A stretch of 64,000 nt of DNA from Rhodanobacter thiooxydans. GTDB lineage: Bacteria > Pseudomonadota > Gammaproteobacteria > Xanthomonadales > Rhodanobacteraceae. Positions 26,660-44,691 of this stretch are shown here, in pieces. The translations under genes and the position numbers were made by a program. A model generated the notes under the pieces. It saw only the letters and a list, made by a program, of their open reading frames with translations. It was not told the DNA's origin and did no database searches. The stretch covers positions 3,286,001 through 3,350,000 of the forward strand of contig NZ_CP127409.1 of the NCBI RefSeq assembly GCF_030291135.1. Reading direction: 5' to 3'. Each line of letters starts with the position of its first letter. The first letter of the stretch is position 1.

Positions 26660-27988
26660 TCAGCTATCTCGGTCTCGGACCTCCTTTCCGGCGCTTGGCC
26701 CTGCCTTCAGAAGCTGTGCCAATGCAGCCTTGAGCTGCTCTGGACTCATCGTGTCGAGATCGGCGGGCGTCATCGGTGCCGCCTCCTCCTCCTTGTCGGC
26801 AAGGCGACTGTTGATGAGTCCGGCGAACGCGCGGCCATCCTGTCGGGTCAGATTCGGCACGTAGCGCGAGTACACGCGGAACAACATGTCGGTGTTCGTA
26901 TGGCCCAGCGTTCTGGCGATCCACTCGGGGTTCTCGCCCGAGGCCAGCATCAGCGTGGCAGCGGTGTGGCGGGTCTGGTACGGACGCCGCTTCTCCAGCT
27001 CCAGGTAGCGCAGCAGCGGGTACCAGACGCGGTTGGTGAAGTTGTGCGCGTCAATCGGGCCACCCTCCCGGGAGGGGAACACCCATGGCACCGCCGGATC
27101 GCGGGCACGTTGCTGCGCAAGGATCGCTTCGCGCACCATCGGCTGCATCGGGATGTCACGGACCGAGGACTGGTTCTTGGCGTCTTCCTCCACCTCACCG
27201 GCGACGACGGTTTCGCGCACCAGGATCAGGTTCCGCTCCAGATCCACGTATTTCCATTGCAGGCCATTGATTTCGCCCGTGCGCATCCCGGTGAAGAAGC
27301 GCGTAGCCAGGTAGTTGCGATAGTCAGGACGAACGGCATCGAGAATCCGGTTGACCTCATCCAGCGAAAACGGCTGCACATCGGTCTTCTTCTGCTTAAG
27401 CGGTTTCACGCCACGAAATGCCGGCGTCACCTCAAAGCGATCAGCCGCCTCGTTCAAGATCTGCCGCAGAAAGCACATGATCTTGTTGATGCGGGCATTG
27501 CCCAACGTGCCCTTGCGGCCCGGAAGCTGGGCGATCTGTGCGCGGAAGGCGAGCACGTCCGCCTTGGTGACCTCGCCCACCGGGCGCGACCCAAATGTCG
27601 GCAGCAGGTTCTTGTTGAGCACCTCGCGCACACACGATCGATGCAGTCGTCGCCACTGCGGCGACATCTCGAGGAACCACAGCTCGGCGAAGTCGGTGAA
27701 CAGAGGAGTGGCCGCCTTCGCTGCACCGGAGTCAGCCATCTGCACGGTTGGACGCAACCCAACGGCAGGAGCACCGAACTGCGCTGCCCGAGGGCTGCCT
27801 GGAAAAACTGCGGCGTAGTCGAACGCCCCTTGAGCCATGTCCTTCTGGACGCGATTGAGCAGCGACTGGACCTTCTTCCGGTTCTCCGACGTATCGGGGA
27901 GTGCCGTCTGCTCGCGGCACCGCACACCCCGATAGAAGAAGTCCAGATAGAGCGTACCGGTCTCCGGCCGCACCCGAACCTTAGCCAT
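26660..27988 (-). CDS. Tyrosine-type site-specific integrase
   Basis: The 442-residue product has an N-terminal arm-binding region (MAKVRVRPETGTLYLDFFYR), a core-binding SAM-like domain (about residues 100-190), and a catalytic domain. The catalytic domain contains FFTGMRTGEINGLQW (first Arg), PYQTRHTAATLML (second Arg), LGHTNTDMLFRVYSRY (His and Tyr nucleophile). The start ATG at 27988 overlaps the end of the excisionase-like gene by 8 bp. Its target is unknown. It may belong to an element nested in the island. Confidence 0.93.
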   Translation of the reverse strand: MAKVRVRPETGTLYLDFFYRGVRCREQTALPDTSENRKKVQSLLNRVQKDMAQGAFDYAAVFPGSPRAAQFGAPAVGLRPTVQMADSGAAKAATPLFTDFAELWFLEMSPQWRRLHRSCVREVLNKNLLPTFGSRPVGEVTKADVLAFRAQIAQLPGRKGTLGNARINKIMCFLRQILNEAADRFEVTPAFRGVKPLKQKKTDVQPFSLDEVNRILDAVRPDYRNYLATRFFTGMRTGEINGLQWKYVDLERNLILVRETVVAGEVEEDAKNQSSVRDIPMQPMVREAILAQQRARDPAVPWVFPSREGGPIDAHNFTNRVWYPLLRYLELEKRRPYQTRHTAATLMLASGENPEWIARTLGHTNTDMLFRVYSRYVPNLTRQDGRAFAGLINSRLADKEEEAAPMTPADLDTMSPEQLKAALAQLLKAGPSAGKEVRDRDS

Positions 27989-28217
27989 GAGCGACACCAC
28001 CATTGGCCATGGGAATGAGCGGAGCGCGGGAGGCTGACGGCGTGCCGATATCCCGCTGGATCGCCTCCCAGATGAACAGCAACTTCCTCCCTCCGAACGG
28101 CCTGATGTAGTGGACGCCTTCCAGCAGCACGGCGTCTTTGAGGCGCGTGCGGATGGTTCGAGCGTCATAGTGAATGCGGTCGGCCAGTTGGTCGGTTGTG
28201 AGATAGGTTTCGCTCAT
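27981..28217 (-). CDS. Excisionase-like DNA-binding protein
   Basis: The 78-residue product begins MSETYLTTDQLADRIHYDAR and resembles the MerR-like winged helix of Xis proteins, with a wing segment VHYIRPFGGRKLLFIWEAIQ. It overlaps the integrase start by 8 bp, which supports a paired Xis-Int unit. The ATG at 28217 was preferred over the longer frame from 28268. Confidence 0.78.
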   Translation of the reverse strand: MSETYLTTDQLADRIHYDARTIRTRLKDAVLLEGVHYIRPFGGRKLLFIWEAIQRDIGTPSASRAPLIPMANGGVAHG

Positions 28218-28349: not shown

Positions 28350-28601
28350 ATGCTTCGCTACAAGCTCAAGGAAAGGATTGCTGACAAGGAGTTTGCCGAG
28401 CGTCGCCGCGTGACGATCCAGGAGATCGCGCAGGCCACCGGCATCACGAGGAATACGCTCTCGAAAATGCTCAACCAGCATGGTGCAAGCGTTCGATCGG
28501 AGAACCTCGACCGGCTCTGTGGCTACTTCAACTGTCGTATCGAGGAGCTTGTGGAGCATCTCGACGAGCCGCCCGCAAGCAAACCCGATTCCAGGCCATG
28601 A
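28350..28601 (+). CDS. Small Cro/XRE-family repressor
   Basis: The 83-residue product begins MLRYKLKERIADKEFAERRR and has an HTH (VTIQEIAQATGITRNTLSKM) followed by NLDRLCGYFNCRIEELVEHL, the pattern of YozG-like XRE proteins. It is divergent from the xis-int module and probably regulates it through the palindromes at 28251. An alternative in-frame ATG lies at 28320. Confidence 0.8.
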   Translation: MLRYKLKERIADKEFAERRRVTIQEIAQATGITRNTLSKMLNQHGASVRSENLDRLCGYFNCRIEELVEHLDEPPASKPDSRP

Positions 28602-28718
28602 AACAGCGGCCCAGTCGCTGCGTCTCAGCTTGCAAGACAGGGGTCAGCCAGAGTCGACAGCGTGACCCACGGAAGATCTCTATTCAGAGCAGAAGGGCAT
28701 GGATGACAGGCGCTGCCA

Positions 28719-29201
28719 TCAAGACTCGGGGACAAGTGGGTTCATCACAATTGAACTCCCGCTGCGGAGCAGCTCTGCGCTGCCGCTCTGTCGCCGAATC
28801 CATGAAACGGCTTGCGCTCCGGCGACCTCCACGTCCCATTTCAACGCGCACTCCCATACGACAAGAACACGCCACCCGGCTTCCGACAGCTCATGTATCG
28901 CCCTCGCATCCCTGCGTTGGTTGGCTTGCAGTTTCGGCTCCCAGAACTCCGGTCGGGTGGCAGGCAGCCGGAACAACGGACAGCCTTCGTGACGATGCCA
29001 GAAACATCCATGCACAAAAACGGCAGCGTTCCAACGTCGCAGCACGATATCCGGACGTCCTGGCAAGTTCCTTGCGTGCAAACGAAAGCGAAGCCCTTCC
29101 GACCAGAAAGCACGTCGAACCAGCAACTCAGGCGTCGTGTCCCTGCTCCGAATCCGCGACATCGCCATGGAACGCTGCTCTCTACTCAGAGTGTCCGCCA
29201 T
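28719..29201 (-). CDS. vsr: Very short patch repair (Vsr) endonuclease, copy 1
   Basis: The 160-residue product nicks next to T:G mismatches that arise when 5-methylcytosine deaminates. The motifs MSRIRSRDTTPELLVRRAF, RPDIVLRRW and VFVHGCFWHRHEGC (Zn/metal site) and the FWEPKLQANQRRD segment are diagnostic. The ATG at 29201 gives the usual N-terminus (MADTLSREQRSMAMS). It is divergent from the Dcm gene at 29384, its expected partner. The C-terminus after residue about 130 is extended with no recognised motif. Confidence 0.92.
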   Translation of the reverse strand: MADTLSREQRSMAMSRIRSRDTTPELLVRRAFWSEGLRFRLHARNLPGRPDIVLRRWNAAVFVHGCFWHRHEGCPLFRLPATRPEFWEPKLQANQRRDARAIHELSEAGWRVLVVWECALKWDVEVAGAQAVSWIRRQSGSAELLRSGSSIVMNPLVPES

Positions 29202-29383
29202 AGGGAAAGTCCTGATCCAAGCCACAAGACAACACAGGTGGGTATGGCGAGGGAATCCGTCCGGCCTCCGGATGACCAGCCCAGCCCCTCCAATACCCCG
29301 TCACCGACAACCAGCCACGCATACGGGTCAGCGGAGCACCCAGTGCTACAGCAACTCCAAACAGTCCGGGAAGTTCATTTGTC

Positions 29384-30946
29384 ATGCCCTTGCAAGTAAA
29401 TGTAATAGACATCTTTGCTGGCCCCGGCGGCCTCGGGGAGGGGTTCACCAACTTCTCGCCAGATGCCAAGCATCACCCGTTCCGCATCCGTGTCTCCGCA
29501 GAGATGGAATCCTCGGCCCATCGCACGCTGACCTTGCGCTCCTTCTACCGAAAGACCATCGCGCTGGATGGCCGCGCTCCCAAGGAGTACTACCAGTTCC
29601 TTGAGAAGGTCTCCCACGGGGATGCCCAGTCCGCCGGGGACTTTTTCTCGAATAGCGCCTATGCATCGCTCTGGCGCGAAGCCACTCTCGAGGCCCGCCA
29701 GTTGGTCCTCGGCACAGAGGACGGCGACAAGGAACTTGCCGGGATGGTCTCGCGGATCCACAACTCGGGCGACGCCCTGGTCTTGATCGGGGGCCCTCCC
29801 TGCCAAGCCTATTCACTGGTAGGTCGGGCACGGAACGCCAGGAACAGCTCCTTCCACACCAAAGGGGACCACAAACACTACCTGTACCGTTCATATCTTG
29901 GCCTGCTCGCCGAGTACAAGCCGGACATCTTCATCCTGGAGAACGTCAAGGGGATCCTCTCGTCGACTGTTGCCGGGAAAGGCATGTTCGGCCAGATCGT
30001 GAGCGACCTCAGCAATCCAACTGCGGCCATGGGATCAACGGGCAAGCGGTCCATGGAGTCCGAATACGTTCTCTTGCCACTCCTCACCGGGGACATGGGA
30101 GCTGAGGATCCACGCTCCTTTGTGGTCAAGGCGGAGACCTTGGGTGTTCCACAGGCCCGGCACAGAGTCATCATCATGGGGGTCCGTCGGGCCGTGTTCG
30201 GCTCAATAAGTCAGTCCCCCGTGCTGGCCAAGAACGAGGAACCGGTGCATCTACGCGATGTCTTGAAGGATCTTCCCGCGTTGCGGAGCGGCCTGAGCTC
30301 TGGTTTCGACACCGGCTCGGCATGGCTGAGCGAGGTCAGACACCAACGGCGACGCCTTATGGGCATGCTGGGCCGCGACGCCATGGATCTCAAGCACCAT
30401 CTGCGCCATTTGAACTTCGGCCCGTCCCTCGAACGATCGTCGTCCGTGTACGCCGATGAATACCTTTCACCAAGACACAGCCACTACTTCCGTGATCCCC
30501 GTCTCAGGCATGTGCTGAACCACGAGACGCGCAGCCATATGAATGACGACCTGGGCCGCTATCTCTTTACGTCTGTGTATTCAGCCGAGCGAAAGCGCTC
30601 ACCCGTCTCCGGCGAGTTTCCTCCGGAGCTGTATCCAGACCACAAAAGCTGGTCCTTGGGACAATTTGCCGACCGCTTTCGCGCTCAGTCGCCGATCCAC
30701 CCGGCGTCAACCATTACAAGCCATCTCTCCAAAGATGGTCACGCATTCATTCACTGGGATCCAGAACAGTGCCGTAGCCTCACCGTTCGCGAAGCCGCGC
30801 GGGCCCAGACGTTTCCCGATAACTATCTGTTCCTGGGTGGGAGAACACAGCAGTACGTCCAAGTGGGCAATGCTGTCCCGCCATTGCTGGCCCAGCGGAT
30901 CGCCGAAGTTGTGTGGTCACTGCTTGTGAACAGGAGAAAGCACTGA
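29384..30946 (+). CDS. DNA (cytosine-5) methyltransferase, system A
   Basis: The 520-residue product has the C5 methyltransferase motifs in order: I (DIFAGPGGLGEGF), IV (GGPPCQAYSLVGRARNARN with catalytic Cys140), VI (ENVKGIL), VIII (QARHRVIIMGV) and X (QVGNAVPPLLAQRIA). A long variable region between VIII and X (about 150 residues) would recognise the target. It heads the six-gene operon to 39870, 31 bp before the sigma-factor gene. It is the modification subunit of a predicted MutL/MORC-type restriction-modification system. Confidence 0.93.
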   Translation: MPLQVNVIDIFAGPGGLGEGFTNFSPDAKHHPFRIRVSAEMESSAHRTLTLRSFYRKTIALDGRAPKEYYQFLEKVSHGDAQSAGDFFSNSAYASLWREATLEARQLVLGTEDGDKELAGMVSRIHNSGDALVLIGGPPCQAYSLVGRARNARNSSFHTKGDHKHYLYRSYLGLLAEYKPDIFILENVKGILSSTVAGKGMFGQIVSDLSNPTAAMGSTGKRSMESEYVLLPLLTGDMGAEDPRSFVVKAETLGVPQARHRVIIMGVRRAVFGSISQSPVLAKNEEPVHLRDVLKDLPALRSGLSSGFDTGSAWLSEVRHQRRRLMGMLGRDAMDLKHHLRHLNFGPSLERSSSVYADEYLSPRHSHYFRDPRLRHVLNHETRSHMNDDLGRYLFTSVYSAERKRSPVSGEFPPELYPDHKSWSLGQFADRFRAQSPIHPASTITSHLSKDGHAFIHWDPEQCRSLTVREAARAQTFPDNYLFLGGRTQQYVQVGNAVPPLLAQRIAEVVWSLLVNRRKH

Positions 30947-30977
30947 GCGCAAAATGCAACAGGGGGATGTCTGACCA

Positions 30978-32696
30978 GTGACCGAAGCAATAGCCACCAA
31001 TCCAGAGGAACAGTCGACGCCACTGGATGCGCTCGACATGTTCGTCGCTGACGATTCCGAAAGTGGGATCAGCGACCAGTCCATCGCCGACAACGAATTG
31101 CTTGTCGACACGCTCGTGGCTGAGTGGTCGGACCTCATGCGGCGCAGCGAGGATACCGGCTCCGGGTTTGACGATGGCATCGAATCACATATCGGTAGAG
31201 ATCTGGAGAGGCAGTTCACCGATGCTCATCGCACAAAACAGCTGGAGCGCAGATCCAATATCGTCGACGCGTTTTCGGCGGCACGGGATAGAGGCTGGAT
31301 CACCGCAGCCGAGCTGGCGGACATACTCCCGAACGGCGCGGCAACTGAGGAGGCCATTTCCGAGATTGCGCTCCATCTCGACGCCGCCGGCATTGCCATT
31401 ATTCAGAGCTGCCCTGAGGAGGGGGCTGAGCCGCTGGATGCGACACCATGTGGCTACCTGGAGGATCTCGACGACGAAGTGGCCATAGCCGAAGGCATGG
31501 GGTCATGCATACCGATCTATCAACCCCGTGTCGGATGGATAAGCAGTCCGCATGATCCCTTGCGCACGTTCGTGCACCACATTGCAAAGAAGCCTCTGCT
31601 GTCAAAGTACGAGGAAATATCACTCGGCCGCCGTGTCGTGGCGGCTCTGCAACCTGTGGCACAGTTGATCCACGATCACCCGGCAATCCTCGATTGGCCC
31701 AAGCTGCGGTGCGCCATACGGCCGCCATATATGTTGGTAGGCGGCCGAGACAGGGAAGTCTCCTTGGAGGCACCTGCCACCCTGGATTCAGCCAAAGCAG
31801 ACCCCGAGGACCTCGAAGACCTCGAAGACCGGGATGAGGAATCCATGGTGTCCGAATCCGCCGACGATGCAGCGACGGATCTCTGGGCACTTGCGCGCGC
31901 CATATGCAAAGCGTCAACGAACATCAATCCGCCAAGCGAACTTGGCACCCATGCGAACAGGATCGCAGCGAGTGCGTTGAGCACTGCAGAAGCCATAAGA
32001 AACATATTTGCCGAGTCGAATTTCAAGCTCGTTTTTTCGATCGCGACCAGGTACATGGGTCGTGGACTGGAAATATCGGACCTCGTCCAAGAAGGGGTTC
32101 TTGGTCTCCTGCGCGGTATCGAGAAATGGGATCCAGAGAGGGGCTGGAAGCTTTCGACGTACGCGACTTGGTGGATCAGGCAGTCAATCACGAGGGCTCT
32201 CGCTGACAAGGGAGGCGAGATACGCATTCCGGTGCACATGATGGAGAAGCTGAACCAAGTGTTTGGCGTGCAACGGACTCTCGAACGTGAACTGGGGCGA
32301 GCACCATCGACTGAGGAAACCGCCGCAGCCCTCAACACCGACGCAGCCTTCGTCACCCGCACGATGAGGATGAGGAGAACGATTGTGGATATCGCCACGC
32401 TGGATCCCGAATCAGAGTGGGTAACCGGCGGAGACAGCGCCATCGATCACGCATGTCAGGAGAACTCCAATGCGCAGATCGACATGGCGCTGTCTTCCCT
32501 AGACAAGCGCGAGGCCGAGGTCGTGAGGCTGCGCTTCGGTATCGCAATGGATGGCGAGCTCACCTTGGAGGAGGTCGGCAAGCGATTTGGTGTCACGCGA
32601 GAGCGGATACGCCAGATTGAGAAAAAGGCGCTGATGAGGCTGCGGCATCCTTCCCGCGCCGCGGGCCTGGCTGATTTGCTGGACTCACAGCCATGA
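30978..32696 (+). CDS. RpoD-like sigma-70 factor inside a restriction-modification operon
   Basis: The 572-residue product carries almost all regions of a primary sigma factor. Residues 1-93 are an acidic extension. Region 1.1 is at about 94-147 (RDRGWITAAELADILPNG, then EEAISEIALHLDAAGIAII). Region 1.2 follows (HIAKKPLLSKYEEISLGRRV). Region 2 is at about 350-420 (SDLVQEGVLGLLRGIEKWDP; KLSTYATWWIRQSITRALAD; IRIPVHMMEKLN). Region 4.2 is LTLEEVGKRFGVTRERIRQI. The GTG at 30978 is the likely start. Its 3' end overlaps the GHKL gene by 4 bp (ATGA). A primary-type sigma on a mobile island is unusual. Its target promoters are unknown. Confidence 0.88.
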   Translation: MTEAIATNPEEQSTPLDALDMFVADDSESGISDQSIADNELLVDTLVAEWSDLMRRSEDTGSGFDDGIESHIGRDLERQFTDAHRTKQLERRSNIVDAFSAARDRGWITAAELADILPNGAATEEAISEIALHLDAAGIAIIQSCPEEGAEPLDATPCGYLEDLDDEVAIAEGMGSCIPIYQPRVGWISSPHDPLRTFVHHIAKKPLLSKYEEISLGRRVVAALQPVAQLIHDHPAILDWPKLRCAIRPPYMLVGGRDREVSLEAPATLDSAKADPEDLEDLEDRDEESMVSESADDAATDLWALARAICKASTNINPPSELGTHANRIAASALSTAEAIRNIFAESNFKLVFSIATRYMGRGLEISDLVQEGVLGLLRGIEKWDPERGWKLSTYATWWIRQSITRALADKGGEIRIPVHMMEKLNQVFGVQRTLERELGRAPSTEETAAALNTDAAFVTRTMRMRRTIVDIATLDPESEWVTGGDSAIDHACQENSNAQIDMALSSLDKREAEVVRLRFGIAMDGELTLEEVGKRFGVTRERIRQIEKKALMRLRHPSRAAGLADLLDSQP

Positions 32697-34204
32697 AGAC
32701 GAAAAGCTGCCCACCTCGCGCCAGCGCGATGATCGAGTCACTGCGTGGCATGGGCTACACAACCGGATCGGCCATTGCTGACGTCATCGACAACAGTATT
32801 TCTGCGGGGGCAACCCTCATCCAGCTCGATTTCGGATGGCACGGAAAGGACTCGTTCATCCGCATATCCGACAACGGGCACGGATTGACTGCGGAAGAGC
32901 TGGACCAAGCCATGGTTCTCGGCTCGACGAACCCTCTGGAATCCCGGTCGACAAGCGATCTTGGGCGCTTCGGCATGGGGCTCAAGACAGCATCCCTATC
33001 GCAATGCCGTCGCCTCACTGTGGCGGCAAAAGTGGACACGGAGGTGAACTACCGCTGCTGGGATCTGGATGTGCTCGCCACGAGCACTGGGGACGATTGG
33101 ACTCTGCTGCTGGAACCATTCCCGTCATCCAGAGGGCTATGCCAAGAAACGCTGGAGAGCGGGTTTGCCACCGTGGTCCTCTGGGAGGGCCTGGACAGGG
33201 TAGTCACTCCGGGGTTCCAGGAGCGGGACTTCTTCGACCTGATCGATGAAGTGGAGCGTCACCTCGCCATGACGTTTCATCGGTTTCTCGAAGGGCAGAG
33301 CCCTCAGGTACGCCTGTACATCAATGGGAACACGCAGAACGAACGCGTGCGCCCGTGGGATCCGTTCATGCGCGCGCACGATGCAACGATGGCCACGCCG
33401 GTGGAGATCCTGCACGGTGGTGTTGCTGTGCAAGGTTACGTACTGCCCCACCGCGACAAAATGAGCAATGCTGAGTTCGAGGCGGGCTCGGGGCCAGCTG
33501 GCTGGGTCTCCCGACAGGGGTTCTATGTCTACCGCGGGAATCGCCTTCTTGTGACAGGAAGCTGGCTGGGTCTCGGCGAAGGGAGGCCATGGCCCAAGGA
33601 TGACCTCCACCGGTTGGCCCGCATCAGCTTGGACCTACCGAATACTCTCGACCATGAGTGGCGGATCGATATCAAGAAGTCGACAGCTCGGCCCCCTGTC
33701 CATCTTCGCAGTCGGCTGGTTGAGCTCGCAAAATCGGTACGTGCGGATGCACGACGCGTGTTCACTCATCGAGGTGAAGTGCGATCCGATGGAGAGGCGC
33801 GGACGATCACCCCCGCTTGGATGGTTTCCGCATCCACGGTCGGTGCCCGGTACCGCATCGACGAAGCGCATCCTGTCATTGCCAGGATTCTGGAAGAATC
33901 GGGCCCATACGCCGGCCGCATCCGTCAGATGCTGCGCGTGATCGAAGAAACCGTGCCTGTCCAGCGTATCTGGTTGGATTCAGCCGAGACGGTCGACAAG
34001 GAGCCCTCCACCATCGACGATGGGGTTCCGGATGATCTGATGGATCTCCTGCGAGAGGAATATCGGAGCCTGATCACTTCGAAGGGATTTTCTCCGGATC
34101 AAGCCCGACGCCAGCTTTCAAGCACAGCACCATTCCACCGATTTCCCAAGGCCATCGCACTGCTTGGGGACAACCGGCAGCACAACGCGGGAGCAACGCC
34201 GTGA
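32693..34204 (+). CDS. GHKL ATPase of the MutL/MORC type, system A
   Basis: The 503-residue product has an N-terminal Bergerat ATP-binding fold: N-box GSAIADVIDNSISAGAT (about 25-41), G1 box SDNGHGLTAEEL with Asp60, and G2 box GRFGMGLKTASLS (91-103). An S5-like middle region follows. This is the MutL/MORC-like GHKL class reported in restriction-modification operons (Iyer, Abhiman and Aravind 2008, recalled). It overlaps the sigma gene and the Z1 gene by 4 bp each. It is likely a conformational switch that clamps DNA or recruits the helicase and nuclease. Confidence 0.85.
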   Translation: MKTKSCPPRASAMIESLRGMGYTTGSAIADVIDNSISAGATLIQLDFGWHGKDSFIRISDNGHGLTAEELDQAMVLGSTNPLESRSTSDLGRFGMGLKTASLSQCRRLTVAAKVDTEVNYRCWDLDVLATSTGDDWTLLLEPFPSSRGLCQETLESGFATVVLWEGLDRVVTPGFQERDFFDLIDEVERHLAMTFHRFLEGQSPQVRLYINGNTQNERVRPWDPFMRAHDATMATPVEILHGGVAVQGYVLPHRDKMSNAEFEAGSGPAGWVSRQGFYVYRGNRLLVTGSWLGLGEGRPWPKDDLHRLARISLDLPNTLDHEWRIDIKKSTARPPVHLRSRLVELAKSVRADARRVFTHRGEVRSDGEARTITPAWMVSASTVGARYRIDEAHPVIARILEESGPYAGRIRQMLRVIEETVPVQRIWLDSAETVDKEPSTIDDGVPDDLMDLLREEYRSLITSKGFSPDQARRQLSSTAPFHRFPKAIALLGDNRQHNAGATP

Positions 34205-37095
34205 ACGAGGCCTTGGTGCAGGACTTCATCAAGCTGGTACAGATGGACCTCAAACGATTCGCACGGGATGGAAAACCCGTCACGCTTGAGACGATCGAGG
34301 CAGCCGTCGCGAAAGCACTCTCTTGGGACGAGGCGTTCAGCACCGTCCCCAAAGGGGACATCGTCAAACTGATGAGCGACCGCTACGCGATCTGGATCGG
34401 CGAGGCAAAGGCGCTCGATGGCGATGACGAACATACGCCATGGCTGACCCCCGAACGCCGGCAGGGGTGGCGCTATTGGTCGGACTACGAAGACTTCCTC
34501 GAGCCCAAAATTGCCGAGGCGAGCATTGAGAGCCTTGATCGGCAAACGGACGAGATCCTCAAGAGGCTTGAGGACCCCGAGAAGCCGGGGCCCTGGGACC
34601 GGCGTGGCCTGGTCGTCGGTCATGTGCAGTCAGGCAAGACGAGCAACTACACCGGTCTGATCTGCAAGGCCGCCGATGCTGGCTACAAGATCATCATCGT
34701 GCTCGCTGGACTCCACAACAATCTCAGATCGCAGACACAGATGCGGCTTGACGAGGGTTTCCTTGGGTACGAAACGAGCCCGAATCTCAATTCACCAAAG
34801 AAGGAGATCGGGGTCGGTCTCGGCCGGGAGCCCAGCCTGAGACCCAACTACGTCACCAATCGATCCGACGGAGGTGACTTCCGGACCCAGGTAGCCAAGC
34901 ACTTGGGTATCAGGCCGGAGCAGACCCCATGGCTGTTCGTGGTCAAGAAGAACAAAACCGTCCTTACGAGGTTGCTCGAATGGATACGGCTTCACGTTGC
35001 AGAACAGACCGACCCGGAAACGGGACGGCGCGTCGTGACCAAGCTGCCCCTGCTCCTCATCGACGACGAGGCTGACCATGCATCGGTGGACACCGCCGAA
35101 CAGGCATTCGATGGTGATGGCAATCCGGACCCGGAGCATGAGCCCAAAGTCATCAACAGTCTGATACGACAGATTCTTGGGGCGTTTTCCCGTTCCGCCT
35201 ATGTCGGATACACAGCTACACCCTTCGCAAACATCTTCATCCATGAGAAGGGATGGACGAAGCTTGAAGGTGAGGATCTGTTCCCGCGCAGCTTCATAGT
35301 CAACCTGCCCGCGCCGTCGAACTATGTCGGGCCAATGAAGGTGTTCGGGCATACCTTGTCGGACGGCACGCTGATCGAGGGACTGCCCTTGATCAGGGAT
35401 GTATCGGACTTTACCGACAGCGAGGAACCAGACTCGACCATTGGCTGGATGCCGAACGGGCACAAAAACGGATATTCACCGCTCTACAAGGGACAGCCCG
35501 AGCTGCCACCAAGCCTGAGGGAGGCCATCCAGGCTTTTGTCTTGACCTGCGCCATCAGACGAACGCGGGGCCAAGGCAGAGAGCACTGCTCGATGCTGAT
35601 CCACGTCACGAGATTCACGAGCGTCCAGGCCGAGGTGACGGGCCAAGTGAAGTCCTATATCGAGGACATGTATCGGCGCCTCCGCCGCGGTATCGGCCAA
35701 GAGGAACTCGTCGCGGAACTCCGCGCACTTCTGGAACACGATTTCATTCCAACGACACGGCTGGTCAACCAACGCATGCCGCCGAATGAACGTGTCGATG
35801 AACCGGACTGGGGCACGGTGGAGCCGGAATTGGTACCGGTTCTCGAGGAGCTTCAAAACCGCACACGCGCGGTGAACGGAACCGCAAAAGATGTCCTCGA
35901 CTATGCCGACAACGAGGTGACCGGAATTCGGGTCATCGCCGTAGGTGGCGACAAATTGGCTCGCGGACTCACCCTGGAAGGGCTGACCGTCAGCTATTTC
36001 CTGCGTGCCTCGCGAATGTACGACACCCTCATGCAGATGGGGCGCTGGTTCGGATACCGCCCGGGATATACGGATCTATCGCGGCTCTACACGACCGAAG
36101 AACTCCAGAAGTGGTTCCGCCACATCACCATTGCATCAGAGGAACTTCGTCAAGCCTTTGACCACATGTCAGCCACACATGCCAAGCCCCGCGAATACGG
36201 CCTTCGTGTGCAGTCGCATGAAGTCATGACGGTCACTTCTTCCACGAAGATGCGATCAGGTCGTGAGCTGAAGATGTCCTACGCCGGGGATGGTATCGAA
36301 ACTACCGTCCTGTCCAGGGACAAGGCGGTGATCGAGTCGAATGCCGATGCTGTAGAGCGCCTGCTTGCAGGCATGGGCAAGCCAAATCTCAATCACTCGC
36401 AGCCGCGGCCGGGCAATACATCGGCCTCATGGAGCGGATCCATGGTCTGGAGCGACGTCTCCGGCGAAACCATCGCGTCCTTTCTGTCTGCCTACCGGAC
36501 TCATATCTCAGCGTACAAAGCCAACAGCTCTCTGTTGGCCAATTACGTGGAGGAAATGCTCAAGGTTGGCGAGTTGGCAGACTGGGTCGTCGCTGTCCTC
36601 AGTGGTGACTCACCGTCGGCACCGAAAATCGCAGGGATCCCAGTCCACCTCGTGGAGCGGACACCGGATGACCGCGACAGCGCACAAGCTGAAAAAGGAA
36701 GGTATGTCATCCGGCGCCTGCTTTCACCACGTGACGAGGCCATGGACCTTGACCTTCGCGCATACGAGGCAGCCCTGGTCCTGACGAGCAAGGCCCGGGC
36801 AAACGATCCGGCCAGAGGCGGCACCCGAAAGAACGAGAAGATCACTTTTCCCAGTGGCCCAGCCATCCGCGCGATCCGCGGCCTCGGCACCCCGGATGGG
36901 ATCGTTCCGCCCAACCCGACAAGGGGCGTGCTTCTCATCTATCCACTTGACCCTCAGAAAGCCAAAATTGCCAACGTCGAAGTTCCGATATACGCCATTG
37001 GTATCAGCTTCCCGTCCAGCACCAACGCGAAATCGATCCCCTATGTCGTGAACAATGCGTACTGGGAACAGGAGCTCGGCGGGGGCCTGCAATGA
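34201..37095 (+). CDS. Z1-domain SF2 helicase, system A
   Basis: The 964-residue product is a Z1 superfamily II ATPase. Walker A is at about 140-147 (GHVQSGKTSN), Walker B is LLLIDDEADHAS (about 285), motif III is GYTATPFANIF (about 336), and motif VI is LMQMGRWFGYRPGY (about 611). Z1 proteins occur with GHKL ATPases, PD-(D/E)XK nucleases and AIPR proteins. The GTG at 34201 overlaps the GHKL stop (GTGA). It would remodel or translocate on DNA to expose it to the nuclease. Confidence 0.88.
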   Translation: MNEALVQDFIKLVQMDLKRFARDGKPVTLETIEAAVAKALSWDEAFSTVPKGDIVKLMSDRYAIWIGEAKALDGDDEHTPWLTPERRQGWRYWSDYEDFLEPKIAEASIESLDRQTDEILKRLEDPEKPGPWDRRGLVVGHVQSGKTSNYTGLICKAADAGYKIIIVLAGLHNNLRSQTQMRLDEGFLGYETSPNLNSPKKEIGVGLGREPSLRPNYVTNRSDGGDFRTQVAKHLGIRPEQTPWLFVVKKNKTVLTRLLEWIRLHVAEQTDPETGRRVVTKLPLLLIDDEADHASVDTAEQAFDGDGNPDPEHEPKVINSLIRQILGAFSRSAYVGYTATPFANIFIHEKGWTKLEGEDLFPRSFIVNLPAPSNYVGPMKVFGHTLSDGTLIEGLPLIRDVSDFTDSEEPDSTIGWMPNGHKNGYSPLYKGQPELPPSLREAIQAFVLTCAIRRTRGQGREHCSMLIHVTRFTSVQAEVTGQVKSYIEDMYRRLRRGIGQEELVAELRALLEHDFIPTTRLVNQRMPPNERVDEPDWGTVEPELVPVLEELQNRTRAVNGTAKDVLDYADNEVTGIRVIAVGGDKLARGLTLEGLTVSYFLRASRMYDTLMQMGRWFGYRPGYTDLSRLYTTEELQKWFRHITIASEELRQAFDHMSATHAKPREYGLRVQSHEVMTVTSSTKMRSGRELKMSYAGDGIETTVLSRDKAVIESNADAVERLLAGMGKPNLNHSQPRPGNTSASWSGSMVWSDVSGETIASFLSAYRTHISAYKANSSLLANYVEEMLKVGELADWVVAVLSGDSPSAPKIAGIPVHLVERTPDDRDSAQAEKGRYVIRRLLSPRDEAMDLDLRAYEAALVLTSKARANDPARGGTRKNEKITFPSGPAIRAIRGLGTPDGIVPPNPTRGVLLIYPLDPQKAKIANVEVPIYAIGISFPSSTNAKSIPYVVNNAYWEQELGGGLQ

Positions 37096-38087
37096 CTTCC
37101 AACCTTCAGGCGCTGTGGAAGGGGCTGGCAGGCGTCTCCGATGGAGCCGGCTGGCAGACGCTCGGCATCAGGCCACAGGCACATTGCTCCATCTGTGCGG
37201 CTATCCGGCATCCAGAGGTGCTGGAGGCGGTGATGCTCGATGTGATGGCGAGCTCGATCCCGAGCAATCTGGATCTGCCCGAGGCACAAGGGTTCCGCGT
37301 GCTGCTGGAGCGGCGCTCTTCGGGAGCCAAAGGCCAGGTGCTGCTGATACTGGAGCGCACGCAGAGCGGAGGCTCTGAACTGTTTGCCCAGATGGTCGAC
37401 GATGTGCTGGATATCACCGAAGCCGCTTCATCCGAGGAGGCCGCAGTGCGCGCATTTGTCGGCAGAATTGTCGCTTGGAAGCGATTCATGCACGAAATGC
37501 GTCCCACGGGCCTCTCTGATTCGGAGGAAATCGGTCTGCTTGGTGAACTGGTGGTTCTGAACACGCTCTTGGATACGCTCCCGGCAGACCAGGCAATCCG
37601 GTCCTGGGTCGGTCCCGAGGATGGGGTCCAGGATTTCGTTTGGGGGCAGTCGGCCATCGAGGTCAAAACCACCCTTGGTGCCAAGGACATCGTCCACATC
37701 TCGTCCATGGACCAGCTTGACCCCTCGCCACTCGATCAACTGCGGTTGATCCGTGTGAGGGCACGGCCCGGGAGTGACGGAAAGACGTTGCCGCAATGGG
37801 TCGACACGGTGGCGGAGCGTTGCCAGCAAGCCCTTTCCGACTTCTCGAATCGTCTGCTTTCCGCAGGCTACGCCGAGGTGCAACGCGACCAATACACTCA
37901 CCAGTTCACCGTGGAAGGACTGGACGCTTACGCAATCACGGAGAGATTTCCCTCTCTCCGAAGAGCCCGTGCACCAGAAGCTGTCCGCGAGGCGAACTAC
38001 CAGCTCGACCTCCGGCTCGCGAAACCGTTCGAGGTGCCGATGGACGAAGCCATCAGCGCAGTGACAGGGGATAAACGTGGCTCTTGA
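37092..38087 (+). CDS. PD-(D/E)XK nuclease-fold protein (DUF4420), system A
   Basis: The 331-residue product has the restriction-endonuclease fold signature: ETxGLL-like EEIGLLGELVVL (about residues 140-152), then GVQDFVWGQSAIEVKTT (about 178-194), with Asp and the Glu-x-Lys of the active site. The DUF4420 family occurs with Z1 helicases. It overlaps Z1 by 4 bp and the next gene by 11 bp. It is the probable restriction endonuclease of the system. Confidence 0.85.
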   Translation: MTSNLQALWKGLAGVSDGAGWQTLGIRPQAHCSICAAIRHPEVLEAVMLDVMASSIPSNLDLPEAQGFRVLLERRSSGAKGQVLLILERTQSGGSELFAQMVDDVLDITEAASSEEAAVRAFVGRIVAWKRFMHEMRPTGLSDSEEIGLLGELVVLNTLLDTLPADQAIRSWVGPEDGVQDFVWGQSAIEVKTTLGAKDIVHISSMDQLDPSPLDQLRLIRVRARPGSDGKTLPQWVDTVAERCQQALSDFSNRLLSAGYAEVQRDQYTHQFTVEGLDAYAITERFPSLRRARAPEAVREANYQLDLRLAKPFEVPMDEAISAVTGDKRGS

Positions 38088-39870
38088 GGATTTTGCGAAG
38101 AACCTGCAGATGGAAGTGCGTGACCGTCGATCCACCCAGTCCGGGAGTGGCGCGGAGGAACGGTCCCCTTTCAGCGAGGAGATATTCACCGAGCTGGTGC
38201 TGGAGAACCTTCAGGAAATCGGCATGGTCTCCGAACCGGAACTGTGTCCACACATCGGACGATTCAGAAATACCGAGGTGAAGATCAGTGGCTATGCCTT
38301 TGGTGAGGTGGACGAGGAGGGCCAGGAGCCGGACGAGGTCGACATCTTTGTCACCCATTATTGCGGCCTCGAGACACCAGAACTCCTTCCAACGGAAGAA
38401 TTGCGCACAGCGGCAACCAAAGCCCTGCGCTTCTACAAGGCCGTGGTGGAGACAGATTTCCGCTTCCAGCTGAATGAGGCAAGCGGGATATTTTCCTTTG
38501 CCGAGCGCCTCCACGCGATCAAGGATGACTTGCGCAAAGTCAGGATCTTCGTGCTGACTGACGGGATCGCGCGTGAGAAGAAATTCAAACCAACCACAGT
38601 TGGCGATGTCGAGGTCCGCCTGGAGGTGTTCGACATCGAGAGGCTGTATCAGCGACTCGAGGCAGGCAAGCCCCGTGACGAGATCGAGGTGGACTTCGTC
38701 AAGCTGACGGGTAGAACGATCCCATGTGTCTACATTCCGGAGATCAACGACGAGTACGAAGCCTGCCTGGCTGTTATTCCAGGTGTGGTGTTGGCAAAGC
38801 TTTACGACCAATACGGCGCCCGCCTGCTTGAACTGAACGTGCGATCTTTCCTGTCGGCGACCGGCAAGATCAACAAAGGGATCCGGGAAACCCTCAAGAC
38901 TCGGCCTGACAGGTTCCTCGCGTTCAACAATGGCATCGTGATGACAGCCGACGAACTGGTCGCGGAGCGCGGGGAGAATGGTCAGATCGGGTTGCGATAC
39001 CTCAAGGGTGTGCAGATCGTAAATGGTGGCCAGACGACCGCATCAATCCACCGGTCCTGGAAACTCAAGGAGGCGGACCTTTCGAAGGTCTTTGTTCCAG
39101 CGAAGATATCCAAGATCCGAGAGGACCAACTCGAGGAGATGGTTTCGCTGATCTCCAAATACGCAAACAGCCAGAACTCAGTTCAGCCGGCCGACTTTTC
39201 CGCCAATGACCCGTTCCATATCGAGATCGAGCGACTCGCCGAGCGCACGTGGTGCCCGGATCAGCGGGGTCGTTGGTTCTATGAGCGCGCAAGGGGCAGC
39301 TATCAGGTTGCGCTGTTCCGGGGGGGCGACACACCGGCGAAACTGCGAAAACTCAAGGAGACCATCCCTCCCCAGCGGAGGATCTCGAAGCCGGACGTTG
39401 CGAGATACATCAACGCTTGGGACGCCAAGCCTCACTTGGTCAGTCTGGGCACCCAGAAGAATTTCGATCACTTCATGCAGCAACTGAGGAAGAGCAGTGA
39501 TGCGAACTGGACTCCTGATGAAAAATGGTTTCGGGACTTGGTAGCAAAGGCCATCCTTTTCAGGGAGGCGCAGCGCATCGTGCGAAGCCTGAAGTTCAAG
39601 GCCAGCCAGTCAAACATCACGGCCTACTTGGTTTCCCTTCTTGCGGATCGCTATGGTGAAAAATTTGATCTGGAACGCATATGGCGAACCCAGGCCACCT
39701 CTCCGCAGTTGAGTGACCTCATGCGTCAGTGGGCCCCTAAAATTGACGGGGCACTGAGACATACGGCCGCTGGGCGTCAGGTGTCCGAATGGGCAAAGAA
39801 GGAGGGTTGCTGGCTTCAGGTACGTCAAGTGGAGCTTGATCCAGCTGAAGGGGTACCCGAGATTCGCTGA
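38077..39870 (+). CDS. AIPR family protein, system A
   Basis: The 597-residue product has the AIPR (abortive infection phage resistance) core: RFLAFNNGIVMTADEL, then LKGVQIVNGGQTTASIH, then LISKYANSQNSVQPADFSAN. The AIPR fold occurs in phage-resistance proteins and beside Z1/DUF4420 genes. Its molecular activity is not established. The GTG at 38077 overlaps the DUF4420 gene by 11 bp, and it is the last gene of the six-gene operon. It may be a nucleic-acid-binding effector. Confidence 0.85.
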   Translation: MALEDFAKNLQMEVRDRRSTQSGSGAEERSPFSEEIFTELVLENLQEIGMVSEPELCPHIGRFRNTEVKISGYAFGEVDEEGQEPDEVDIFVTHYCGLETPELLPTEELRTAATKALRFYKAVVETDFRFQLNEASGIFSFAERLHAIKDDLRKVRIFVLTDGIAREKKFKPTTVGDVEVRLEVFDIERLYQRLEAGKPRDEIEVDFVKLTGRTIPCVYIPEINDEYEACLAVIPGVVLAKLYDQYGARLLELNVRSFLSATGKINKGIRETLKTRPDRFLAFNNGIVMTADELVAERGENGQIGLRYLKGVQIVNGGQTTASIHRSWKLKEADLSKVFVPAKISKIREDQLEEMVSLISKYANSQNSVQPADFSANDPFHIEIERLAERTWCPDQRGRWFYERARGSYQVALFRGGDTPAKLRKLKETIPPQRRISKPDVARYINAWDAKPHLVSLGTQKNFDHFMQQLRKSSDANWTPDEKWFRDLVAKAILFREAQRIVRSLKFKASQSNITAYLVSLLADRYGEKFDLERIWRTQATSPQLSDLMRQWAPKIDGALRHTAAGRQVSEWAKKEGCWLQVRQVELDPAEGVPEIR

Positions 39871-40075: not shown

Positions 40076-40558
40076 GTGCGTAAACCTCGGCGAAACGATG
40101 CACAGAGCATCACCCTCGGGACACAGGCATACCTACAAGTGGCGCCTGAGACCCGCCGCCGCATGCTGGCCGTCCGGCGCCGGGACACGGCACCTGAGCT
40201 CCGCGTTCGCAGTACTCTTCACGCCATGGGCTTTCGGTTCCGACTACACAGCAAGGATCTCCCCAGCACGCCCGACATTGTCCTGCCTCGCCACCGAAAG
40301 ATCATCCTCGTACATGGCTGTTTCTGGCATGGGCACGACATGTGCAAACGAGCGACGCGCCCCGTCAACAATGCCGACACTTGGGCAGCCAAAATCGAAG
40401 GCAATCGCCGGCGCGATCAAGAAAACCTTGATGCTCTCCGCTCACTGGGTTGGGGAGTCCTGATTGTATGGGAGTGTGAGGTACGGGATATCATTCTCCT
40501 TGAAAGGCGCTTACGCAATTTCCTCGAGCAGCCCGTGACAGGCGTCAGACCCGTGTAG
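40076..40558 (+). CDS. vsr: Very short patch repair (Vsr) endonuclease, copy 2
   Basis: The 160-residue product has the Vsr motifs MLAVRRRDTAPELRVRSTLH, SKDLPSTPDIVLPRHRK and IILVHGCFWHGHDMC, then the AAKIEGNRRRDQENL stretch. It differs clearly from the copy at 28719. The start is probably GTG at 40076. It converges on the Dcm gene of system B with an overlap of 14 bp, so the pair is probably one repair/modification unit. Confidence 0.9.
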   Translation: MRKPRRNDAQSITLGTQAYLQVAPETRRRMLAVRRRDTAPELRVRSTLHAMGFRFRLHSKDLPSTPDIVLPRHRKIILVHGCFWHGHDMCKRATRPVNNADTWAAKIEGNRRRDQENLDALRSLGWGVLIVWECEVRDIILLERRLRNFLEQPVTGVRPV

Positions 40559-41978
40559 TTCTTGTAGGACCGCCTAGCTGTTTGTTTGGTGGAGTAGCGC
40601 GCTTTGTCGGCTTTACGTAATCAAAGTAGATGCGCGGGTCGTCGCGCCCGTCCTTTTTGGCCGCGAACACGAGCTTCGCCCATCCCTTGATGATTCGCTC
40701 GTCACTCGAAGCCATTGGCGCGCGGCCCCATTTGTGCTTCAAGATGCCATAAAGCACTTCGCCGTGCAGCTTCGTGAATGCCGGCGGCACAGCCTCACCG
40801 ATCATCTCTCGCACGTTCGTATGACCAAGTTTCTTGAGCGCATCCCCCCATTTGAAGTCGATTGGGAAAGTTTGGAGCAGTGAACATTCGAGCGGGCTAA
40901 GCAGACGATTTTGTGTCGGATGGATCGTGTAATCGCTTCCAATGTGTCCGCTTGCGGTCGTGACGGTAGCAGCTGGGCGGTCAGCATGCATTCGACGATA
41001 GCTACTCTTGAAGCCTTTGATCAGCCGATAGCCACCATCTCTTTCTTGCACTATGGGGCGTAAGAGCGGATTGGAACAATTTGGGCAAATCACCGTCTCA
41101 GGCAATACCTTGACGGGCCCGCAATGGTGACAAATATCGTTGTCCCAAGCACTGAGACCTGTGCCACGTGGAATCGCCGCCACCATGGCATATGTGCGTT
41201 CATCCCACACCGGCACGAAATGAAAACCAGCGTACCCTTCAGCACGAGCCGCCTTGGGCGTCGCTGCATCCAAATCCGGAAGCGCAAATGCAGCCAGTGC
41301 GTCCGCCAACGAGATCGGCATGGCGTTGCCAACGTCGGGAGCGTGCGTAGCCCGTGGGAATGGGGCTCTGCCAATGCGTAGTAATTTCTTCAGCCCGGGA
41401 AGATCTTTGCGCACGAAGGTCAGGAACGCCCTGTTGCGCGACTGGGGCACGCCGAAGTCGCAAAGATCCGCAACCATTGGAAATGCGACGTAATGTTTGG
41501 CCAATGCGGTGATGAGGTAGTTCGCAGCCGAGACCGGTTTCTTGTCCTTGGGATGATGGACCTTGCGGGCGAAAAACGCAGGTACATTTTCGACTACGAT
41601 CAACGAAGGCATTAATTTCAACGCGACGTTAGCAACCACCGTTACAAGCAGGTTGCGCTCATCTTTTGAGCCAGCATTGGCATCGTCATGGCTGCCTTTG
41701 CCCGAGCGTGCAGAACTCATGCCCTGGCAAGGTGGGCAAGCGCAGAGCAAAGCTGGACGAGCCTTGCCGGCACGAGAGCGATACTTTTTGATCACGGTCC
41801 GCCAAGTCTTTCGCAAATCACCCGGCACGCCTTCGGCCTCTGGGTGATTGAGTAGGCAAACATCTAGGCGGCGCGCATCTAGTTCGGCCATTACGTCGAA
41901 TCTGAAGCCTGCTTCACGATAGCCGACATCACCGGCGCCGCAATTGGAAAACAGACTTACAGCGCGCAGCTTACTCAT
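40545..41978 (-). CDS. DNA (cytosine-5) methyltransferase, system B
   Basis: The 477-residue product has motif I (SLFSNCGAGDVGYREAGF), IV (CACPPCQGMSSARSGKGS, catalytic Cys84), VI (IVVENVPAFF), VIII (DFGVPQSRNRAFLTF) and X (MIGEAVPPAFTKLHG). The region between VIII and X contains a zinc-ribbon-like set (CHHCG, then CPNC), unlike the system A enzyme. The start overlaps the GHKL stop by 4 bp (ATGA), so it is co-translated with 41975-44074. It is the modification enzyme of a second MutL/MORC-type system. Confidence 0.9.
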   Translation of the reverse strand: MSKLRAVSLFSNCGAGDVGYREAGFRFDVMAELDARRLDVCLLNHPEAEGVPGDLRKTWRTVIKKYRSRAGKARPALLCACPPCQGMSSARSGKGSHDDANAGSKDERNLLVTVVANVALKLMPSLIVVENVPAFFARKVHHPKDKKPVSAANYLITALAKHYVAFPMVADLCDFGVPQSRNRAFLTFVRKDLPGLKKLLRIGRAPFPRATHAPDVGNAMPISLADALAAFALPDLDAATPKAARAEGYAGFHFVPVWDERTYAMVAAIPRGTGLSAWDNDICHHCGPVKVLPETVICPNCSNPLLRPIVQERDGGYRLIKGFKSSYRRMHADRPAATVTTASGHIGSDYTIHPTQNRLLSPLECSLLQTFPIDFKWGDALKKLGHTNVREMIGEAVPPAFTKLHGEVLYGILKHKWGRAPMASSDERIIKGWAKLVFAAKKDGRDDPRIYFDYVKPTKRATPPNKQLGGPTRTTRV

Positions 41979-44074
41979 GGCTGCTTTCCCTCTCGCTTCT
42001 CAGCGCCGAGGTCATGGACATCCAAGAACTGCTCGTGTACTTTCTTCGTCCGGCTCAAGAAGTCATGCCAAGACGTACGCTTTACGCGGCCGTCATCCAC
42101 GAATCCCTTGTAGGCATGTCGATTGGAACTCTTCTTCAGTTTCTCGCCGTCTGCGACGAGGTCAATTCGCCATTTCCTGTAAAATTCTGCCACGGTCTCC
42201 GTGTTTTCTTTGAAGAATTGCTCGAAGGCATCGACATAATTGATCAATCGATCAAAATCCGTGTCGTCAAAGGCATGGCCAGCCTTCTTGATCTCCACGA
42301 TGTGTAGAAGTCCGTCGATACTGACCAGCGTGAAGTCTGGTCGCTTGCTTTCGTAACCAATGGCGAGAACCACCTCGGTGCCGTAGGCCGTTTTCCAGAA
42401 TTTCTCGAAAGCGTGCTTGAAATTCTTCAAGCTCTGGTTCTTCGTGATTACGGTCCAAGAAGGTTCAATGAGCCAAGGTGCTTGCGCGATAAGCTCCTGA
42501 AATTGGTTTTCGTCCATCGACACGTCGATAATTTTCTGGAGATCTTTGATCACCCTGACGCGCTGCGCGGCGATTTGAGCATAAGATGCCAGTTCCGCGA
42601 TCTGAGCCTTGCTAAAGATGTCCAGCATCTGGTCAATAGACGCTTCGCCTTTGGTCACTTGGTTAGTGAATTCGTGGAAAGCTTCCATTAGTGCTTGATG
42701 CGGCGCGACCGAAAGAATAATCTGCGATAGGTCCTCAACATAAACGTCGTCGTTCAATTCGTCTTCAGCGGCGAAGCCGCCGAATTTCTTGGCCAAGTCG
42801 ATGGCGACGCGCGCCACCTGTTTGTCCCCGAACCTTTGTCTAGCTCGATTCTCGATCTGGGACTTCCGGAGGAACTCATCGCGCACGCGAATCCGACGTG
42901 GCTCGCGCGAGATGCGAGCAATCTCCTTGATGAGTTCAGCGCCCCAGCGACGCAACAGCTGACCATAGTCTGAGTCCCAGAGGATGTCTTGGCGGTCTGT
43001 TCGAACGAGGTCATCACCTTGATCCAAGTCCAGCCACTCCGCCTCGACTTGGCCGACCAAGTACGAGCGCATTGCGAATTCGCCGGTGAAGCCTGCGGGC
43101 TGATTAAAGTCTCGCGTCACACCAACAATCTTGCCGCGCGCGTAGATTCGCACGCCCATCATTTCTTCGTTCTTGTACGCCTCTTTGGCCATGCCAAGCC
43201 ATCCCGACACGGGGAGTGTGGAACCATCGTCGGCGATGACAGGGCGGCTGGCTAAGTCGACCTTTGAACCGGGTAGCAGCGGTATGTCTAGTGGATTGAC
43301 CCTTACAGGTCCTACGTCGCTCTTGGTCGCGTCGACGATCAGAATCTTAAAGTCGGGTTTGGCGAATGTGAACCGCACGGCTAACTGGCGTAAGAATGTG
43401 TCCAGATCAGGGACACGCTTGGCCAGAAAGAACGTAAGTCTTATGCGGGTTCCGGATTTTTTGCTCCAACCGTGGTCGTCGCTACCAACCTCGAGTGGTA
43501 CCGCATCGTCATCGTCTGTGACGATCTTGTCAAAGTCCATGAAGAAGTGCGAGATCGCATAACCATTCTTGGTCTTGGGACCACCGGCAGACCACACTTC
43601 AATGCGACGACAAATTCCGAAAGGGGCCAGTTTCCCGATGCCCTTGCGACCCATGACGGGCCGCTTTTTCGTCCTCGACCTGCTGCCGTCTTCGTTCTTT
43701 CGGGTCCGGCGATCCGCGCCCACCCGTAAGTAAAAACCGCTCGCTTCGTCGGGCGTCATGCCGTGTCCGTCGTCCTCGACATCGATTACGTAGCCAAGAT
43801 CCTTCAGCTTCCCACCAGCCTGAGATGCAAGCTGGAGGTTCAGCGGCAGGCGGACGGTGACGGTTTCTGCATCTGCGTCGTAGCCATTGGCAATGAGTTC
43901 TGCGACCACCGCGCTGGCTTTGTCGTATAGCTTGACGCCAAGTTTGTCGACGGTGAGGCGCGAAATTCGTAAGTGGTACGGTGAGTGACCCGCTTCAGCC
44001 TTCTTCACGACCGAGGTTGGTCGACCGGACTCGCGGCCGTCGGCCGGCACTGCACGGCGAGAAGGTGTGGCCAT
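41975..44074 (-). CDS. GHKL ATPase fused to a Shedu-like nuclease domain, system B
   Basis: The 699-residue product has an N-terminal GHKL domain: N-box AVVAELIANGYDADAETV (about 56-73), G1 box VEDDGHGMTPDEA (about 99-111), and G2 box GRKGIGKLAPFGIC. After an S5-like and helical middle region it ends in a DUF4263/Shedu-like PD-(D/E)XK domain (PDFTLVSIDGLLHIVEIKKA at about 585-605). It merges the ATPase and nuclease functions that are separate in system A. The ATG at 44074 is preferred because GGAG lies about 6 bp upstream. An alternative ATG is at 44080. The C-terminal nuclease call is by motif only. Confidence 0.85.
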   Translation of the reverse strand: MATPSRRAVPADGRESGRPTSVVKKAEAGHSPYHLRISRLTVDKLGVKLYDKASAVVAELIANGYDADAETVTVRLPLNLQLASQAGGKLKDLGYVIDVEDDGHGMTPDEASGFYLRVGADRRTRKNEDGSRSRTKKRPVMGRKGIGKLAPFGICRRIEVWSAGGPKTKNGYAISHFFMDFDKIVTDDDDAVPLEVGSDDHGWSKKSGTRIRLTFFLAKRVPDLDTFLRQLAVRFTFAKPDFKILIVDATKSDVGPVRVNPLDIPLLPGSKVDLASRPVIADDGSTLPVSGWLGMAKEAYKNEEMMGVRIYARGKIVGVTRDFNQPAGFTGEFAMRSYLVGQVEAEWLDLDQGDDLVRTDRQDILWDSDYGQLLRRWGAELIKEIARISREPRRIRVRDEFLRKSQIENRARQRFGDKQVARVAIDLAKKFGGFAAEDELNDDVYVEDLSQIILSVAPHQALMEAFHEFTNQVTKGEASIDQMLDIFSKAQIAELASYAQIAAQRVRVIKDLQKIIDVSMDENQFQELIAQAPWLIEPSWTVITKNQSLKNFKHAFEKFWKTAYGTEVVLAIGYESKRPDFTLVSIDGLLHIVEIKKAGHAFDDTDFDRLINYVDAFEQFFKENTETVAEFYRKWRIDLVADGEKLKKSSNRHAYKGFVDDGRVKRTSWHDFLSRTKKVHEQFLDVHDLGAEKREGKQP

Positions 44075-44080
44075 TGGCAT

Positions 44081-44658: not shown

Positions 44659-44691
44659 ATGGTGGCTATGGGTGGACTCGAACCACCGACC
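44659..44691. repeat. Right attachment site inside tRNA-Met
   Basis: Identical 33-bp repeat to 8758-8790. It covers the 3' end of the tRNA gene from the CCA to the T-arm and variable region. The whole tRNA is preserved here, as expected when a mobile element replaces the 3' end it interrupts. Confidence 0.92.

Follow-up and report, generated by a model that had tools for sequence, protein, structure and literature searches.

We analyzed a 64,000-nucleotide stretch of the Rhodanobacter thiooxydans genome (contig NZ_CP127409.1 of assembly GCF_030291135.1, positions 3,286,001 to 3,350,000 of the forward strand; hereafter the window), which carries a candidate anti-phage operon coding for a C5-cytosine DNA methyltransferase (MTase), a sigma70 factor, a GHKL ATPase, a helicase, a nuclease and an AIPR-family protein (Table 1). 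A first-pass annotation made from the sequence had described six tightly coupled genes on one strand with a divergent vsr, a 31-bp gap behind the MTase and overlaps of 4, 4, 4 and 11 bp thereafter, and the locus is indeed built this way. The divergent genes are separated by a 158-bp spacer, the MTase gene is the apparent first gene, and mzaA follows it in one apparent operon. That annotation knew of no full system with experimental phage defence data, which does not hold, since genes 2 to 6 match MzaA to MzaE of the MZA anti-phage system in PADLOC and in the NCBIfam models NF041931-NF041935. An entirely new system was also considered and is ruled out by these matches to named MZA families. MZA (mzaABCDE) was reportedly first described, with phage data, by Gao et al. 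in 2020. A validated mzaABCDE system is mentioned in the available part of a 2022 language-model study (PMC9523054).

Table 1. Genes of the operon and the divergent vsr in window coordinates, with profile matches.
Product	Position	Strand	Pfam and TIGR matches	PADLOC, bits	NCBIfam, bits/cut-off
Vsr mismatch endonuclease	28719..29225	-	Vsr 2.3e-29; TIGR00632 141.7 bits, cut-off 97.85		
C5-cytosine DNA methyltransferase, 520 aa	29384..30946	+	DNA_methylase 5e-37		
MzaA-like sigma70 factor, 572 aa	30978..32696	+	Sigma70_r1_1 to r4	169.6 (MzaA 2.2e-50)	292/800
MzaB, MORC/MutL-type GHKL ATPase, 503 aa	32693..34204	+	HATPase_c_3 4e-26	523	625/850 (NF041932)
MzaC, helicase		+		1015	1096/1500
MzaD, PD-(D/E)XK nuclease, DUF4420, 331 aa	37092..38087	+	DUF4420 4.3e-67	125	248/420
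MzaE, AIPR abortive-infection family, 597 aa	38077..39870	+	AIPR 1.3e-92; AIPR_N 1.1e-37	475	639/1050 (NF041935)

The five mza genes lie in the order of the named system on one strand, and their products are 47% (MzaB), 52% (MzaC), 30% (MzaD) and 39% (MzaE) identical to those of the E. coli MZA system, with 39% for the sigma part of MzaA. The idea that the operon is of the MORC type predicted by Iyer, Abhiman and Aravind (2008) is supported by both signature motifs: GhXhhpXXRhl reads GFYVYRGNRLL at residue 276 of MzaB, and the superfamily 2 (SF2) helicase motif DThhQXuRhFG reads DTLMQMGRWFG at residue 608 of MzaC. These motifs were found in 101/103 MzaBs and 100/103 MzaCs, compared with 0/103 shuffled sequences for each. 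The operon fits the third type of prokaryotic MORC operon (PMC2292703), although the available part of that description mentions no sigma factor and the window has one. MzaD carries the E-D-ExK residues of the restriction-endonuclease fold (E152, D181, E190-x-K192), kept in 102/102 relatives, and N284-N285-G286 of MzaE is kept in 103/103. By sequence, the solved structures nearest MzaB are MutL (7.9e-8) and then the human MORC protein MORC4 (0.0035); the Protein Data Bank (PDB) yielded no relative of MzaC up to E 0.1, none of MzaD up to E 1, and a single match to MzaE at E 0.61. A second, longer AIPR-family open reading frame (ORF; 883-1102 aa) lies behind MzaE at four loci (L082, L101, L106, L111).

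The window also differs from other published systems. Type II of the putative system in PMC9523054 is described, in the part available, as having about 20% identity to mzaBCDE and a sigma factor in only few systems, whereas the window has the sigma factor and its MzaB to MzaE share 30-52% identity with their E. coli MZA counterparts. For the ATP-dependent CglI and NgoAVII restriction-modification (R-M) systems, the accessible text of PMC4267653 describes a PLD-type nuclease and no GHKL, DUF4420, AIPR or sigma gene.

Relatives were surveyed with iterated profiles, one source scan supplying the best 80 of 265 confirmed loci; because near-duplicates (L036/L037 and L072/L123, for example) stayed in the set, the loci are not fully independent. 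An MzaB-like gene was found in 16 of 233 genomes of the window's taxonomic family, its own included (E ≤ 1e-20), and, at 1e-60, in 15/398 genomes of a phylum sample and 5/369 of a class sample. The mzaB DNA of E. coli locus L103 was matched in 55 of 5426 complete E. coli genomes (46 over at least 80% of its length), and five records of a phage collection held MzaB relatives, two annotated as mismatch repair proteins. For MzaA, a family search over the class told us nothing, as its model ranks the organism's own RpoD (463 bits) above the window MzaA (292 bits).

Sigma-bearing rows formed one clade with support 1.0 both in a tree of MzaB and MzaC (74/74 rows, 104 loci) and in a tree that added MzaE (71/71 rows, 103 loci), statements that depend on the outgroups L033 and L041, respectively. 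Within this clade the window splits off first, the remainder having support of 0.991 and 0.996 in the two trees. In the three-protein tree it shares one clade of 81 rows with named MZA (support 1.0; 0.996 for the 80 others), in which ten rows lack a counted MzaA, six being Pseudomonas-type loci and the other four (L070, L072, L123, L114) having a contig end or only a short MzaA ORF. Sigma-free outgroups stand next to the sigma-bearing clade, and a Pseudomonas clade without sigma is nested inside it, which looks like a loss. The window thus shares all five families, their order and a clade with MZA; it differs in its deepest branching, its scores under all five NCBIfam cut-offs, an MzaA that has region 1.1 and no ankyrin repeats, and an MTase as apparent first gene. 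We conclude that the operon is, judged by sequence, an early-branching relative of MZA paired with a C5-MTase.

The MTase and Vsr are not part of MZA as defined by NCBIfam and PADLOC, which comprises five genes. A C5-MTase was present in the stretch at 95 of 110 MZA-like loci (window included; MzaB profile above 400 bits), and Vsr at 85. In the 59 with adequate flanks (MzaE present and at least 2.5 kb on each side), the MTase was found in 57 and both genes in 49, compared with neither gene in any of 40 HsdR-centred control stretches from the window's taxonomic family; the controls were hand-picked rather than random, and one (L176) is, at 16.2 kb, shorter than the usual 19 kb. MZA-linked proteins served as the training set for the MTase and Vsr profiles, which nevertheless recognize the Dcm-like enzyme of E. 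coli at 244 bits and its Vsr at 194 bits. L097 and L101 lack the MTase in the stretch; both genes lie at a greater distance on the same contig (L166, L167). Only L097 is among the 59, where the sole other exception is Enterobacter L108, whose genome carries a Dcm-like/Vsr pair at another site. The L108 and E. coli L103 genomes each hold, away from MZA, a 472-477 aa MTase adjoining Vsr that we call Dcm-like by resemblance. A Dcm-like MTase in the L103 genome (L161) is joined to a Dam-like part, with what by eye is an intein-like insert in the catalytic Pro-Cys-Gln motif.

In 74 long MTases the cysteine of the PCQ motif and the residues of ENV and QxRxR showed no variation, and Vsr D59 and H77, presumably catalytic, were present in 84/84 relatives. 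Target-recognition regions, which could not be delimited in 28 of 96 MTases, fell into one single-linkage cluster at 40% identity in 59 of 68 delimited cases, window included; the cluster splits at 50%, its largest piece numbering 31. Outside this cluster, the MZA-linked MTases of L031, L036, L037 and L120 have a target-recognition region of the same type as the Dcm-like enzyme of E. coli. Comparison with solved structures for the specificity of the window MTase returned generic C5-MTase matches only. In Listeria, modified GCAGC has been reported from four strains carrying a methyltransferase-encoding mza.

The MTase and Vsr could instead be an independent type II R-M system, or an orphan pair, that merely adjoins MZA in a plain defence island. 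Such an arrangement would agree with L035 and L036, where a restriction endonuclease is annotated as a separate gene in the neighbourhood of the linked MTase, and with the E. coli system, which has neither gene within 20 kb. We consider it improbable given the contrast between MZA and HsdR-centred stretches and the grouping of most delimited target-recognition regions at 40%. As far as linkage can tell, the MTase and Vsr belong with MZA.

Ankyrin repeats are fused to the N-terminal side of the sigma70 part of MzaA in 72 of 73 relatives (Ank_2 in 36/36 and 36/37), in a set from which ORFs of 450 aa or less were dropped and, for the ankyrin count, four running off a contig. N-terminal ankyrin repeats are a feature of MZA defined in this analysis, with no published criterion known, and the window MzaA lacks them; it consists of regions 1.1, 1.2, 2, 3 and 4, and among 74 MzaAs it alone matches region 1.1 in Pfam. 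An ankyrin part missed through a wrong start codon was ruled out, the MTase stop lying 31 bp upstream. L115 holds the only other MzaA uncut by a contig end and without an ankyrin match, so ankyrin loss may have occurred more than once. The predicted structure of the window MzaA (mean pLDDT 70.7; 152 residues under 50) resembles E. coli sigma70, its best PDB matches extending over 563 columns at TM-scores near 0.3. In regions 2-4 its closest relative is the L080 MzaA (49%), by a small margin over the best RpoD (45%), and it is 44% identical to its own RpoD. A stray housekeeping paralogue was ruled out by this nearest relative and by its place in the MZA operon.

The window MzaA carries the RNA polymerase (RNAP)-docking, -10 and -35 residues of a group 1/2 sigma70, keeping D403, Q406, E407, T429, Y430, W433, W434, Q437, T440, R441, H455, E458, R584, E585, R588 and Q589 (E. 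coli numbering) and differing at L402, I405, N409, M413, Y425, F427, R448 and A592. From E. coli sigma70 we take D403, Q406 and E407 to dock on RNAP, T429, Y430, W433, W434, Q437 and R441 to read the -10 element, and R584, E585, R588 and Q589 to read the -35 element. Across 78 MzaAs, which include the few rpoD-like copies described below, D403, Q406, E407, F427, T429, Y430, W433, W434, R436, Q437, R441, H455, R584, E585, R588 and Q589 were kept in 0.91-1.00, with lower values for E458 (0.88), A592 (0.65), V576 (0.55), I405 (0.54) and T440 (0.51) and the lowest for M413 (0.49), L402 (0.28) and Y425 (0.19). The region 3.2 finger is not RpoD-like: its 16 positions were kept in 0.05-0.28 of the MzaAs, compared with 1.00 at 15/16 in 24 RpoDs, and window identity over E. 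coli positions 502-526 is 0.16. The host RpoD of L061 was left out of these counts and of the mixture-model tree, approximately unbiased (AU) tests and nucleotide ranks below.

This conservation is what would be expected if MzaA were an ordinary regulatory sigma factor for its own operon or other genes, raising restriction genes after methylation in the manner of a C protein. In sigma-bearing loci mzaA directly precedes mzaB, and the occurrence of the core without sigma in the outgroups and one Pseudomonas clade also fits. Against this, the finger is poorly kept, though alternative sigmas vary there too; a consensus scan of window positions 28600-32000, which is weak evidence, gave no sigma70-type promoter match; and the window mzaA sits behind the MTase in its apparent operon. 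Moreover, the L074 MzaA shares 96.6% identity with its host's RpoD over regions 2-4 and should read RpoD promoters, so that control of its own operon by promoter choice is unlikely there. Weighing both sides, we give a regulatory sigma factor slightly less than an even chance.

The L074 system lies on a finished Cupriavidus chromosome. Its match to rpoD starts near RpoD ORF residue 350, reaches 0.99 nucleotide identity and holds at 0.81-0.99 in most 40-codon blocks from there, one being at 0.61. The N-terminal part, up to region 1.2, shares 47% identity with the MzaA of L068, the sister system, and 16% with the RpoD of its own host. In L068 itself, regions 2-4 are 59% identical to the host's RpoD. 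Weaker cases are L105 (88%), L078 (85%), L020 (74%; the window's genus), L099 (71%) and L052 (63%); the window MzaA is not a case of rpoD capture. The six were picked after their RpoD identity was seen. In all of them the N-terminal part is nearer another MzaA (39-91%) than the own RpoD (13-18%), and among 23 rpoD genes the own host's ranks first at the nucleotide level in five and second in L052. Of the 18 other MzaAs for which the host's RpoD was available, 2 (L049, L094) had the own host first by protein identity. MzaA rows entered the RpoD group of a mixture-model tree at several places, and a joint AU test rejected RpoD as one clade apart from MzaA (p-AU 2.4e-5). Single-lineage tests were not significant (L074 0.23, L105 0.23, L078 0.28, L099 0.10), L020 alone does not nest in the RpoD group, and L052 stood outside the single tests. 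We read these cases as repeated capture on three grounds: the AU result for the lineages taken jointly, the ranks of the own host and the tract in L074. The sigma core of MzaA would then have been overwritten at times with the host's housekeeping sigma factor, which hints at a possible bait for phages.

Such cores might reflect passive gene conversion between paralogues and carry no functional information. The two genes share conserved stretches where recombination can start, and the block pattern of L074 is compatible with conversion. It would, however, have to explain five or six candidate lineages in which similarity starts only behind the first 250-370 residues, as well as the 59% at which sister L068 stayed, and we find it rather unlikely. 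A further possibility is that MzaA is an integrated decoy, imitating host sigma70 so that phage proteins that seize sigma70 bind it, with the ankyrin part (region 1.1 in the window) signalling to MzaB-E. The near-universal ankyrin fusion, the rpoD-like cores behind N-terminal parts of MzaA type, the own-host ranks and the joint AU test all point in this direction, as does a study across biomes that counts mzaA as one of the defence genes in which mutations are dense. The non-significant single-lineage tests and the failure of L020 to nest speak against a decoy, as do L119, sister of L099, whose own host's RpoD ranks only eighth of 25, and the window MzaA, with no ankyrin part and just 44% identity to its RpoD. 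We therefore regard the decoy as a tentative idea with about one chance in three at best.

Taken together, we favour, with a probability of roughly 0.6, a restriction machine driven by ATP and coupled to 5-methylcytosine (5mC), to which the sigma factor would add a layer of regulation or a bait for phage proteins. In this proposal MzaB-E would restrict unmodified DNA at the expense of ATP, the linked C5-MTase would mark self, and MzaA would do either the regulating or the baiting; that unmodified DNA is cut and DNA modified by the own MTase spared is what gene linkage alone suggests. Several observations weigh against it. None of the five window proteins reaches its NCBIfam equivalog cut-off, for which reason the window is filed as a deep sister branch and not as the named MZA system. 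No C5-MTase was found in the E. coli and Enterobacter stretches examined, so that self may be marked by more than methylation; E. coli L130 has neither MTase nor Vsr in 41.5 kb, and a type I R-M system lies upstream. When 13 further genomes were searched whole, the C5-MTase family gave no match in three (L053, L077, L109), all metagenome assemblies with cut contigs. MTase position and orientation vary widely among loci, the family is sometimes another, and Vsr is missing from 10 of the 59 stretches. Finally, the sigma factor is absent from the Pseudomonas clade and the outgroups, which indicates that the core can do without it.

The operon appears to lie within an island of about 36 kb, as indicated by a 33-bp direct repeat (window 8758-8790 and 44659-44691) that covers the 3' end of a tRNA-Met gene (44660-44736, -). 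The island is mostly of lower G+C and holds a tyrosine recombinase (26660-28168). Adjoining MZA is a second 5mC-type system (40076-44080) with vsr (40076-40558, +), a C5-MTase (40545-41978, -) and a GHKL protein (41975-44080, -) resembling the BbrUII/HgiDII restriction enzymes (244 bits, cut-off 550). Other cargo includes a 6-pyruvoyl tetrahydropterin synthase-like protein (23498-24226, -), a weak NYN-ribonuclease match under its cut-off (16393-17691, -) and a 1742-aa ORF without a Pfam match (9101-14329, +).

In the literature searched we found no explained role for a sigma factor inside an anti-phage operon, and no account, in its open-access part, of ankyrin-sigma MzaA or of rpoD-like MzaA cores. 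Two patterns, the near-universal ankyrin fusion and the host-rpoD-like cores in several lineages, make the role of the sigma factor testable. Integrated-decoy logic is known from plant immune receptors, and if MzaA were a decoy, bacteria would guard their transcription machinery by the same logic. The linkage data further argue that MZA be treated together with its 5mC methyltransferase and Vsr.
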